Part shown: positions 15,271-21,087 of the stretch, one piece after another
Layout of the letters: every line of letters begins with the position of its first letter
Numbering within the stretch: position 1 is the stretch's first letter
NCBI RefSeq assembly: GCF_009649845.1
Contig: NZ_WJIE01000010.1
Location: 248,001 to 312,000, forward strand
DNA length: 64,000 nucleotides
Source: Polyangium spumosum
GTDB lineage: Bacteria > Myxococcota_A > Polyangia > Polyangiales > Polyangiaceae
Direction: 5' to 3'
Notes under the pieces: model-generated
What the model was told of the DNA's origin: nothing
The model's input: only the letters and a program-made list of their open reading frames with translations
Database searches by the model: none
Program-made: the position numbers and the translations under genes

Positions 15271-15672
15271 ATGATGAACGCCATCAAGTCGTTGTTCTTC
15301 GCCGTGTTGTCGCTGGGTATCGTGGGGACCACGAGCGTGGCCCGCGCCGAGGAGCCGGTGGAGGAAGCCACCGAGCTCGAGGTCGCGCGCGCCGACGAGG
15401 AGGCCACCGAGGAGCGCGACATCACGAACTCCGACCAGGCGGCGCTGTCGAGCCAGTTCGACCACCGACCCTTCGATTACAGGGACTTCCGCCGTCGTGG
15501 CGGGCGCCGCGAGTGCCGCGAGTTCTGCCAGGACGAGTACTTCCGGTGCGAGCGGTTCGACGATCGCTTCAGGCGCCACGGTTATGACCGCGACCGCTTC
15601 CGCCGCCGCGGCCGCTGCCAGCGCGAGTTCAACTTCTGCATCCGGCGCGTCTGTCGCGGGGGTCGCTTCTAA
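15271..15672 (+). CDS. Small secreted Arg- and Cys-rich protein, unknown function
   Basis: 133 aa. A signal peptide ends VARA and is followed by an acidic propeptide-like stretch starting EEPVEEATELEV. From about residue 75 the protein becomes strongly basic and has six Cys in two sets, C-x3-C-x6-C and C-x6-C-x4-C, suggesting a disulphide-linked helical hairpin. AGGGGGA precedes the ATG. An acidic leader before a basic Cys-rich core resembles secreted precursors in general, but I recognise no family. The same EEPVEE opening follows the signal peptide of the protein at 20548. Confidence 0.75.
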   Translation: MMNAIKSLFFAVLSLGIVGTTSVARAEEPVEEATELEVARADEEATEERDITNSDQAALSSQFDHRPFDYRDFRRRGGRRECREFCQDEYFRCERFDDRFRRHGYDRDRFRRRGRCQREFNFCIRRVCRGGRF

Positions 15673-17862: not shown

Positions 17863-18495
17863 TCAATCGTAGCTGCACTGCTCGCCGCGGGCCTCCGCCC
17901 ACGCGGACGAAAACGCCCCCTCCGTGTAGGCCTTGCAGCTCTGCCCCTCGTCGCTCGTGTAATTTCGCGTGAATTCGGAGAACCGCGCGTCGCAGCAGGC
18001 CTGGAAGGACGCGCCGCAGAACGCCTGTGCCGGGCGCGGGAGGTATTCGCCGGCGTCCACGCCTCCGAGGTCGATCGACAGATCACAATAAAGCTGGCCC
18101 GTGATCTCCGCGATGATCTCCCCCTCGCGGCAGCAGGACGCGCCGCAACGCGCCCAGATGCCGTGGAGCTCCTCGATCACGCCGGAGACGCTCCCGGCGT
18201 GCTTGCAGGCTGCGCCGCGGCCTCGACCCATCCGGCGCGGGGGACGGTTTCGGCGCGCGCGCCGGAGGATACGCTCGGCGACCTGCTCGAGGTGCGCGCA
18301 ACGCGCCTCGCCCGCGGCCCCTCGCGCCATCGCGCGACCGGGCCCGCGCCCCTCCTCGAATGCGGCGCGCTCCTGCGCCCCCTGGCAGGCCCGAGGAGGC
18401 TGCCCCGGCTCTGCCGAGGCGTCCCCCCCGAGCCCCACGAAGCCCATCACGAAGAGACCGAGGGCCCATTTCATGATCGCGGCGCTCGCCTTCAT
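17863..18495 (-). CDS. Secreted Cys-rich paralogue 1 (12 Cys), unknown family
   Basis: 210 aa. A signal peptide ends GGDASA. The mature protein has 12 Cys in the same order as the next gene, including CC pairs in GASCCREGE and QACCDA, a C-x19-C segment (starting CKHAGSVSG) and the signature LYCDLSIDLGG. Between residues ~55 and 95 it is Arg-rich and less conserved than its relatives. ATG at 18495 overlaps the stop of the upstream paralogue (ATGA). Last gene of a four-gene operon; exported and probably disulphide-bonded. Confidence 0.85.
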   Translation of the reverse strand: MKASAAIMKWALGLFVMGFVGLGGDASAEPGQPPRACQGAQERAAFEEGRGPGRAMARGAAGEARCAHLEQVAERILRRARRNRPPRRMGRGRGAACKHAGSVSGVIEELHGIWARCGASCCREGEIIAEITGQLYCDLSIDLGGVDAGEYLPRPAQAFCGASFQACCDARFSEFTRNYTSDEGQSCKAYTEGAFSSAWAEARGEQCSYD

Positions 18496-19100
18496 TGCCG
18501 GTAGCTGCACACGCTGTTCCGCGATTGCGTCCACGTCGCGCGGAACCTGCCTTGCGTGTACGGCCTGCACGAGCCGAAGAGGCCCTGGTACGCCGGCGTG
18601 ACGCTCTGGAACGTGTCCCGGCAACACGCCTGCGCCGTGGCCCCGCAGAAGCCCATGGGCCGCTGCACCAGGAAATTCGTCAACCGCACCCCGCCGAGCG
18701 CGATCGAGAGATCACAGTAGAGCTTGCCCATGATCCACCCGACGAGCTCCCCCTCGTCACAACACGCGATCGCGCACAGGGTCCAGGTCTCGTCGACCTG
18801 CTCCACGGCGCCCACGAGCGTGCCCACCGTGCGGCATACGACGTAATCGTCGGAGCCGGGCGGCAGGGTGACGTTTTGCAGGGTCTCCATGACCACGGAC
18901 GAGAACCGCTCCAGGTTCCCGCACGAGGCCACCGAGTTCCATGCCTGCTGCACGAGGGAGCGGCCGGACAGGAGGCCAGCCTCGAAGGCCCGCGTGTCGC
19001 GTGGCGCGCTGCACCCGAGCGGCACCTCTTGCGCCGCGGCATTGCCGGAGAGCCCGAGCAGGGCCATCAGAACCCCGAACATCGAAGCTTCGCGTCTCAT
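18492..19100 (-). CDS. Secreted Cys-rich paralogue 2 (12 Cys), unknown family
   Basis: 202 aa. A signal peptide ends SGNAAA. The core shows CSAPRDTRAFEAGLLSG, C-x19-C (CRTVG to TLC), CCDEGELVG, the signature LYCDLSIALGG, then GFCGATAQACC. This member best represents the family because every conserved Cys is present. GAGGAGGAGG precedes the ATG at 19100. It starts 26 nt after the stop of paralogue 3 and overlaps paralogue 1 by 4 nt, so all are transcribed together. I recognise no domain. Confidence 0.87.
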   Translation of the reverse strand: MRREASMFGVLMALLGLSGNAAAQEVPLGCSAPRDTRAFEAGLLSGRSLVQQAWNSVASCGNLERFSSVVMETLQNVTLPPGSDDYVVCRTVGTLVGAVEQVDETWTLCAIACCDEGELVGWIMGKLYCDLSIALGGVRLTNFLVQRPMGFCGATAQACCRDTFQSVTPAYQGLFGSCRPYTQGRFRATWTQSRNSVCSYRQ

Positions 19101-19126
19101 CGGAAACCTCCTCCTCGCCTTCGGCT

Positions 19127-19729
19127 TCACGGGGCGGGGTTGTAGGTGCACTGGTTGTTGCGCGTCTGGTGCCACACCGGCGTGAACGAGTCCCTCGTGT
19201 ACGCGCCGCACATCGGGTAATTTTGCGTGTAACCCATGAACTCGGCGTCGCAGCCGATCTGGAAAGCCAGCCCGCAGGTCCGCACCGGGAACCGGATGAT
19301 GTCCTGCGCGAGGCCGAGGCCGCCGAGGCTGATGGACAGATCGCAGTACATCTTGCCGCCGATGCGCGCGATGAGCTCACCCTCCTTCCGGCATTCCCAG
19401 TCGCAGCGATTCCACGTCTGGTCGACCACCGCCTCGGCGCCTTGCACGATCCCGGCCACGCGGCAGAGGACGTAGGTGCTCGACTCCTGCGGGATCTCGA
19501 CGTCGTCGATATTTCGCATCACCAGGTTCGCGAAGTCCTCGATGCGGTCGCAATCGTTCACCGCGTTCCAGGCCGACTCGATGAGGCTCTCGCCGGACTG
19601 CACCCCTGCGTGGAAGGCCCGCCGGTCCCGGGGCCTCGAACAAAGCGCGGGTGGCACCACCGCGAGCGCCTCGCCGGCGATACAGAGCCCCACGAGAAGC
19701 ACGCCCAGCGACATTCCGTTCACCTTCAT
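19127..19729 (-). CDS. Secreted Cys-rich paralogue 3 (10 Cys), unknown family
   Basis: 200 aa. A signal peptide ends AGEALA. The conserved blocks are CSRPRDRRAFHAGVQSG, C-x19-C (CRVAG to NRC), ECRKEGELIA, MYCDLSISLGG and TCGLAFQIGC. Both places where the relatives have adjacent Cys pairs (CC) have one Cys here, so one disulphide between them was probably lost or gained as a unit. AGGGGGGA-like sequence precedes the ATG at 19729. Second gene of the operon. Confidence 0.87.
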   Translation of the reverse strand: MKVNGMSLGVLLVGLCIAGEALAVVPPALCSRPRDRRAFHAGVQSGESLIESAWNAVNDCDRIEDFANLVMRNIDDVEIPQESSTYVLCRVAGIVQGAEAVVDQTWNRCDWECRKEGELIARIGGKMYCDLSISLGGLGLAQDIIRFPVRTCGLAFQIGCDAEFMGYTQNYPMCGAYTRDSFTPVWHQTRNNQCTYNPAP

Positions 19730-19786
19730 GGATCCCCCCTCTCGCTCTTTCCCCTCGTCCTTCATCCCCGCGCGGACGCGTGGCCT

Positions 19787-20371
19787 TCAGCGGCCCATGC
19801 AGATCTCCGCCTCGATCAGGTCCAGAAACCGCGTATACATCGTCACTTCCATCCCGAGCACCTCGCGCTCCGCGCTCTCGACCTCCGCCCTGCAGGCGCG
19901 CGACTCGAGGCGCCCGAGAAAACCGTAATCGATGTCGAACACGGCCCTCGTGTTCGAAGTGGTGACGAGGCCGCCGCCCGTGTCGAGCATGGCGACGAAG
20001 GTGGCCATGGCGATCCGGGAGACCGTCCCCAGCGAGGGCGCCTGGAATGCCGGGTCGTCGCATTGCGCATAATCCCGCCGGAGCCGCTCGACGGCGTTCT
20101 CGTAGATCCCCTCGTAATAACACCGCTTCATGTCGGCGGTCCCGGTCCAGGTCGCGGCGAGGTTCGAGAGCGCCGCCACGAGGGCGTCCTCCGCCCCCGG
20201 GAGCTCGTCCGCATTGCAATTCACGCGCGCCATCACCTGGCCCACGGCGATCTCGCTCGTATTTCGGCCGAAGTTGCGCGCGTCGGTGCACGTCTGGAAA
20301 GGTTGCGCGAGCCCGATCGCGGATATCGCCATGCATGCCGCCGCCGCAGCGGCGCCCACGAGCTTCTTCAT
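19787..20371 (-). CDS. Divergent secreted paralogue 4 (6 Cys), unknown family
   Basis: 194 aa. A signal peptide ends AIGLAQ. It lacks the YCDLSI signature but keeps the first part of the family layout: Cys after the signal, a second Cys 23 residues later, and a C-x19-C segment (CYYEG to AQC) of exactly the spacing found in the other three. The rest is helical with two more Cys near the end. GGAGGATG lies before the ATG at 20371. First gene of the operon, 57 nt ahead of paralogue 3 and divergent from the gene at 20548. Confidence 0.8.
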   Translation of the reverse strand: MKKLVGAAAAAACMAISAIGLAQPFQTCTDARNFGRNTSEIAVGQVMARVNCNADELPGAEDALVAALSNLAATWTGTADMKRCYYEGIYENAVERLRRDYAQCDDPAFQAPSLGTVSRIAMATFVAMLDTGGGLVTTSNTRAVFDIDYGFLGRLESRACRAEVESAEREVLGMEVTMYTRFLDLIEAEICMGR

Positions 20372-20547
20372 CACCATCCTCCAATCCGCCGTTCCGTGCG
20401 CCGTTCCGAGTGCAGACGTCATGCCCGGAACGATGCGCGGCCGGGTGCCAGGAGGCATTGCAGCACTCCCGGAGGACGGCCCACGGTCGCAGGCTTCATT
20501 CAGGACATCCGGCGCTCCGTTCGAGAGCCGGGGGAGGGGAGTTCACC

Positions 20548-21087
20548 ATGAAGAAGCTGGTCATGGCGGCGATGCTCGCCGCGATGGGTATGTCGTCCAT
20601 TCCGGTCCTGGCCGAGGAGCCGGTCGAGGAAGTGGCCTCCGAGCTCTCGGCGGCGCACGACGACAAGAAGTTCGTGCAGGTCATGGCGCACGAGAACCTC
20701 ATCGCGGTGCGGGCCGCGAGGATCGCCGTGCGGAAGGCGCGGAACAGCAAGGTCGAGGCGCTCGCCCTGCAGGAGCTCGCCGAGCACGCCGACGTGAACG
20801 AGGAGCTCGAGGCGCTCGCGAAGAAACACGGCGTGCAGATGCCGACCGCGCTCCATCCTGTGGTCGCGGATCTGCTCCAGCGCCTCGCGAACCTCCAGGG
20901 AAATCGGTTCGACAGGGCCTACCTGCACATCGTGATCGAGGGGCACCAGTTCGACGTGGCGATCCTCTCGCAGGCATTGCTCTCCCAGGATGAGGACGTG
21001 AAGGCGTTCGCCGCGAAGAACCTGCCCATCCTGCGGCGGCACCTGCAAGCGGCGCAGGAGATCCTCCGCGCCTTGCCGGCGGAGTGA
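20548..21087 (+). CDS. Secreted DUF4142-like helical protein
   Basis: 179 aa. A signal peptide ends IPVLA and is followed by EEPVEEVASELS, matching the opening of the mature protein at 15271. The mature protein is a four-helix bundle of the DUF4142 kind (DKKFVQVMAHENLIAVRAAR, then ALQELAEHADVNEELEALAK and HQFDVAILSQALLSQDEDVK). Members are periplasmic and often stress-linked, with no proven activity. GGGGAGGGGA precedes the ATG. It is divergent from the Cys-rich operon across a 176-nt shared promoter region. Confidence 0.8.
   Translation: MKKLVMAAMLAAMGMSSIPVLAEEPVEEVASELSAAHDDKKFVQVMAHENLIAVRAARIAVRKARNSKVEALALQELAEHADVNEELEALAKKHGVQMPTALHPVVADLLQRLANLQGNRFDRAYLHIVIEGHQFDVAILSQALLSQDEDVKAFAAKNLPILRRHLQAAQEILRALPAE

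Follow-up and report, generated by a model that had tools for sequence, protein, structure and literature searches.

A Polyangium-restricted family of exported, cysteine-rich proteins with a predicted helical-bundle fold

What are four small, adjacent genes for cysteine-rich exported proteins doing in the genome of Polyangium, a genus of soil bacteria, and where did they come from? The window analysed here, a stretch of 64,000 nucleotides from Polyangium spumosum, carries such a group on its minus strand. The original prediction, made from the letters alone, described a single operon of secreted paralogues, produced by gene duplication and belonging to no recognised family. We ask how far the four proteins are related, how widely the family extends, how it has evolved, and which functions are compatible with the answers. 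The genome containing the window is referred to as G000 (10.76 Mb) and the other Polyangium genomes as G148 to G152; the genes of these relatives are calls by our own gene caller rather than annotation.

A putative operon of four exported proteins

The locus comprises the following features.

Gene 1, 17863..18495, minus strand: exported protein; 12 mature cysteines; arginine-rich stretch separating helices 2 and 3; alternative start at 18474 possible
Gene 2, 18492..19100, minus strand: exported protein; 12 mature cysteines; modelled as a seven-helix bundle (pLDDT 88.3, pTM 0.87)
Gene 3, 19127..19729, minus strand: exported protein; 10 mature cysteines
Gene 4, 19787..20371, minus strand: exported protein; 6 mature cysteines; probable distant paralogue
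Intergenic region separating gene 4 from the divergent DUF4142 gene, 20372..20547, no strand: conserved blocks in an alignment of four genomes; probable promoter

Each gene has an ATG start and a stop codon, at the coordinates first predicted. The genes lie head to tail in the minus-strand order 4-3-2-1, with spacings of 57 bp and 26 bp followed by a 4-bp overlap when gene 1 is read from 18495. Its orthologues in G149 and G151 were called from an equivalent MKWA, which makes the eighth codon (18474) a possible alternative start; this start would replace the overlap with a 17-bp gap to gene 2. Purine-rich sites lie upstream of genes 2, 3, and 4, and the GC3 of the four genes is 0.86-0.90, compared with 0.93 in three neighbours. 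Upstream of gene 4, blocks of the intergenic region are kept in the window genome and three relatives, and this region probably contains the promoter. The geometry agrees with the single operon that had been proposed, G149 and G151 keep the gene order, and G148 does so without gene 1; by geometry and conserved order, then, the operon is supported. The arginine-rich segment of gene 1 is also present in G149 and G151, and a compensated frameshift was for that reason dropped as its source.

All four proteins, with mature lengths of 172-182 residues, have export-type N-termini as judged by eye: basic residues at the start, then a hydrophobic core, with AxA at its end. No lipobox with a cysteine at the cleavage site, by which a lipoprotein would be recognised, was seen by eye in any of them, and the cysteine within the signal peptide of gene 4 has no counterpart in three of the other four proteins of this type, while the remaining one has a cysteine at a different position.

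Kinship, predicted fold, and cysteine pairs

By sequence comparison, genes 1, 2, and 3 are clear paralogues: gene 2 as a query in its own genome retrieves gene 3 at E 3.7e-47 and gene 1 at E 8.2e-35, pairwise identity among the three is 35-42%, and the predicted YCDLSI(D/A/S)LGG signature is exact in each. Gene 4 is 25-31% identical to them and shares the predicted C-x19-C segment, found in all four proteins with a glycine four residues past the first cysteine. A profile of five gene 4 sequences aligned with the core profile at E 1.7e-4 (hhalign), a value that we dropped as proof of homology since it becomes 0.021 once the signal peptides are removed. The corresponding score of 20.1 lies between the 95% level and the maximum of 200 column shuffles (16.9 and 22.9) and below both values for 200 shuffles of seven-column blocks (21.4 and 25.2), and core profiles built without gene 4 did not retrieve it at E 0.01 or at E 1.

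The structural models speak for kinship. AlphaFold predicts gene 2 as a helical bundle of seven helices with high confidence (from 8 sequences) and gene 4, at medium confidence (pLDDT 68.0, pTM 0.66, from 3 sequences), as seven helices too, in what by eye is the same order although the two alignments were separate; the original prediction had named unrelated folds as evidence against itself, and both models are seven-helix bundles. Cysteines 6, 30, 62, 82, and 169 of gene 4 occupy helix positions similar by eye to those of cysteines 7, 37, 66, 86, and 175 of gene 2, and cysteine 138 aligns with C137 of gene 2, being ambiguous by helix position. The same designed helical repeats also head the structure-match lists of both models. 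Shared helix order is support rather than proof, because a seven-helix bundle is a common shape. Gene 4 is probably a distant paralogue, a placement for which sequence alone is insufficient and which the models favour, so the claim of four paralogues stands for genes 1-3 and is provisional for gene 4.

Known families offered no clear match to the proteins, as the original prediction had anticipated. Pfam and NCBIfam searches with genes 1-4 and 13 diverse members returned nothing credible (best E 0.015; matches listed with a curated cut-off score well under it), none of the four proteins matched PADLOC or PHROGs at E <= 1, and the matches from PDB sequence searches were weak, mutually inconsistent, and not credible. 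One of the latter, to a terpene synthase, was absent with a wider family profile and was taken as chance. The same holds for the poxvirus L1/OPG095 entry-fusion proteins, which are helical with disulfides: a weak profile match of the C-terminal half (E 0.001-0.0043) was absent from the wider-profile list at E up to 1. The titles and abstract openings of the literature consulted held nothing on these proteins.

In structure comparison, Foldseek found no PDB match at E <= 0.001 (best E 0.61 for gene 2 and 0.18 for gene 4) and, for gene 2, no match among viral models at that threshold. In VIA-align, both models matched designed helical repeats at Z 9-10, values common for helical bundles by chance; the helix order fits a helical repeat (alpha-solenoid), yet the scores lie in that chance range. 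The designed repeat DHR4 (PDB 5cwb), which likewise consists of consecutive antiparallel helices, heads the VIA-align list of gene 2 (Z 9.7, rmsd 4.2, 157 aligned; Foldseek E 1.1) and comes second in that of gene 4 (Z 9.7, rmsd 3.8, 153 aligned; Foldseek E 0.27, probability 0.95), but identity is 6-7%, Z is below the level that VIA-align calls meaningful for helical bundles, and shared ancestry does not arise because DHR4 is a designed protein. Among the Foldseek and VIA-align matches listed we recognised no known fold, and we do not claim a new one.

The same lists bear on whether the proteins might carry small molecules or lipids, by analogy with the helical lipid-binding domains of fungal MP1 and Afmp4p, which are helical exported proteins. 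VIA-align lists Afmp4p for both models and MP1 for gene 2 (5j5l, 5j5k, 5ecf, 5csd; Z 4.1-5.5, 4-10% identity), but these values fall within the range of unrelated helical models and the alignments are partial. We consider a carrier function very improbable.

The cysteines vary in a pattern of their own. Cysteine alignment, counts, tree, and shuffle test cover 29 of the 30 members found, all but L039 12051-12635, which is third in the G152 cluster and has an unsettled start. At alignment columns 46, 111, 219, and 258, cysteine is present in 28, 29, 29, and 29 of these proteins, respectively. The number of mature cysteines is even in 24 and odd in five: G148_2, G149_2, and G151_2 (13 each), G152_1 (11), and G152_C80_1 (9). 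The same 11 proteins, and no others, have the extra cysteines of both CC pairs, a co-occurrence that on the tree represents few events. The cysteines at columns 80 and 131 (equivalents of C37 and C86) are both absent in the same three proteins, in one of which a deletion takes out C37 and an asparagine stands at C86; in this count, the first cysteine of the pair sits at column 75 in five gene 4 proteins and was counted as the same. The gene 4 proteins lack cysteines at columns 159, 160, 175, 211, 218, and 238. Two members vary in length: a gene 1 type in the second cluster of G149 (L040 9328-9927) has lost about 32 residues by deletion, one cysteine among them, and has asparagine at the inferred partner of that cysteine, and the single distant member of G151 (L080 8983-9597) carries an insertion, about 24 residues long, between the cysteine ending helix 3 and the cysteine starting helix 4.

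From the paired pattern and the helix order we infer six disulfides, which in mature gene 2 numbering would be C7-C66, C37-C86, C90-C155, C91-C136, C106-C129, and C137-C175; gene 4 would keep C7-C66, C37-C86, and C137-C175. The map is partly circular, as pairs were chosen partly by what gene 4 lacks, and it takes the gene 4 cysteine near helix 2 as C37, which MAFFT places five columns off. Four pairs of the map would join the same end of an up-down bundle, C91-C136 and C137-C175 being less clear. Together these patterns suggest up to six disulfides on the modelled bundle and cysteines that tend to be gained or lost pairwise. The confident gene 2 model and the paired changes also favour the stable exported fold that had been predicted.

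Distribution and evolution of the family

All six Polyangium genomes contain members, 30 in total with gene 4 types counted (six in G000, three in G148, seven in G149, three in G150, five in G151, and six in G152); gene 4 types occur in four of the six. Among the 177 genomes of the order that lie outside Polyangium, 25 gave matches to a wide profile at E 0.044-1, 24 of which were inspected (the 25th being without a locus) and revealed no exported cysteine-rich protein of this kind. Outside the genus, the first four-row profile, which included gene 4, gave two matches (E 0.006 and 0.007), a phylum sample of 377 genomes another two (E 0.002 and 0.009), and the gene 4 query seven (E 0.0037-0.08); inspection of all of these marginal matches found no comparable exported cysteine-rich protein. 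Several inspected non-Polyangium matches fall on signal peptides or non-coding frames, and the wide-profile matches inspected look like chance. Gene 2 as sole query matched nothing among plasmids and phages. The contig scans used short peptide patterns (one for genomes, two for viruses), by which diverged members would be missed. The family is restricted to Polyangium among the genomes searched, a single genus and so a narrower range than the myxobacterial one that had been guessed.

Within the genus, the cassette is present or missing as a block at one site. In G000, G148, G149, and G151 it adjoins one and the same DUF4142 gene; G150 and G152 lack it at this site. In G152, 149 bp separate the flanking transporter and DUF4142 genes, with no cassette between them; in G150, its place is held by a lipoprotein-like gene, two-component-like genes, and a large kinase-like gene, as judged by eye. 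That lipoprotein-like gene (L126 7301-8278) encodes 35 cysteines in 325 residues. A related three-gene cluster lies elsewhere in both G150 and G152, and G149 carries another cluster, made up of gene 4, gene 2/3, and gene 1 types. Two-gene tandems of distant members, with differing neighbours, occur on contig C4 of G000 (L041 9278-10476) and contig C80 of G152 (L079 8917-10118). Judging neighbours by eye, mostly from their first 60 residues, we saw no gene that accompanies all family loci. The DUF4142 gene (window 20548-21087, plus strand) is divergent from the operon and encodes an exported protein (Pfam E 2.5e-28) whose identity across the Polyangium genomes, 61-71%, is below that of most neighbours. 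It was rejected as a cassette partner: it is present in all six genomes and, because G150 and G152 have it without the cassette there, it is not tied to the cassette. Elsewhere in the window, the plus-strand gene at 15271-15672 encodes a small exported protein with a sub-threshold Pfam match (E 0.0026); it lies beside an SDR gene in several Polyangium genomes, and its relatives in L126 and L127 have six cysteines.

In the tree, genes 1, 2, and 3 form separate orthologue groups, and the duplications are therefore older than these species; the predicted gene duplication is borne out for genes 1-3 and placed before the species split. Their syntenic orthologues are 78-85% identical to the window copies, within a range of 61-87% for other neighbours, and dN/dS between the window genome and its relatives is 0.21-0.40 (Nei-Gojobori, codon bias uncorrected). 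Genes 1-3 are under constraint. Gene 4 behaves differently in one of six species pairs: between G148 and G149 it has 50 nonsynonymous and 16 synonymous changes, compared with 19 and 31 in genes 2 and 3 together (Fisher p 5e-5). Its loop between helices 4 and 6 differs in that pair at 15 of 27 positions, compared with 27 of 145 elsewhere (p 1.4e-4), for a segment that was picked after inspection and that has pLDDT under 50 in part; the core genes have no comparably variable loop. Relaxed constraint or allele exchange would also be a possible explanation for the excess, because the other five pairs have pN/pS of 0.40-0.52, the range of the DUF4142 and glyoxalase neighbours, and because G148 gene 4 groups with G151 gene 4 in the tree.

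These rates bear on two antagonistic roles. The proteins could be periplasmic immunity proteins against the toxins of the cell itself or its kin, resembling those of the Rap1a/Tai4 type, which function with type VI secretion and are small, exported, helical, disulfide-bonded, and often in tandem. Tandem, small, helical, cysteine-rich, exported proteins would suit this role, as would the excess of gene 4 changes between G148 and G149 and a C-x3-G-x3-G helix motif that resembles Rap1a. However, Pfam gave no Rap1a match (E up to 10 for nine proteins and up to 0.1 for 13), the cysteines here number up to 12 or 13, no toxin-like gene was recognised beside family loci (by eye, with eight neighbours also run through Pfam), and genes 1-3 are constrained. 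Rap1a/Tai4 structures are also absent from the Foldseek and VIA-align matches listed, which would be compatible with a shared fold all the same. On balance we judge immunity improbable, and we think it similarly improbable that the proteins are factors released against prey or competitors. Polyangium is predatory, and exported, cysteine-rich, genus-restricted proteins in several diverged copies per genome, encoded in part by a patchy cassette, are what such factors could look like; the constraint on genes 1-3, however, comes without an arms-race signal.

Possible functions

The reading that we tentatively favour, while holding it to be somewhat short of probable, is that of soluble, Sec-exported, disulfide-stapled helical scaffolds that act by binding. 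The operon would yield four soluble proteins that are exported by Sec and stay or act outside the cytoplasm, all sharing one disulfide-stapled bundle of antiparallel helices. Their function would be to bind one another, the cell surface, or some outside partner rather than to catalyse reactions, because across the 13 diverse members only the cysteines, one glycine, and the start methionine are invariant. An enzyme is still conceivable, because some Glu, Asp, Ser, Thr, and Arg residues are also invariant within the close core. Genes 1-3 would belong to one set without redundancy, perhaps as a hetero-oligomer, to which gene 4 would add a more variable component.

We consider two other readings unlikely. 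Structural parts of an extracellular matrix, fruiting body, or spore coat could have a stable cross-linked fold such as the one predicted, adjacent copies, genus-specific occurrence, and constrained sequences; against this, no developmental gene was recognised nearby by eye, and no low-complexity or anchoring segment was seen. The fold itself might have been born in the genus, as a disulfide-stapled scaffold of seven helices that arose in Polyangium and expanded to form a cassette of specialised paralogues, three of them constant parts of a hetero-oligomer and the fourth using a single variable loop to follow a partner that changes.

Whether or not the tentatively favoured binding scaffolds prove to be the right description, this is a new genus-restricted family of a familiar sort: lineage-specific, exported, and cysteine-rich. 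It provides a clear case of exported proteins in multiple copies whose fold is predicted with confidence and for which we detected no relative beyond one genus, and such families are raw material for studying the origin of new folds. In the paired gain and loss of its cysteines, the family preserves a history of disulfides acquired and shed by one scaffold. For Polyangium, the family represents a compact, constrained set of exported proteins that are candidates for roles in predation, kin recognition, or matrix formation.
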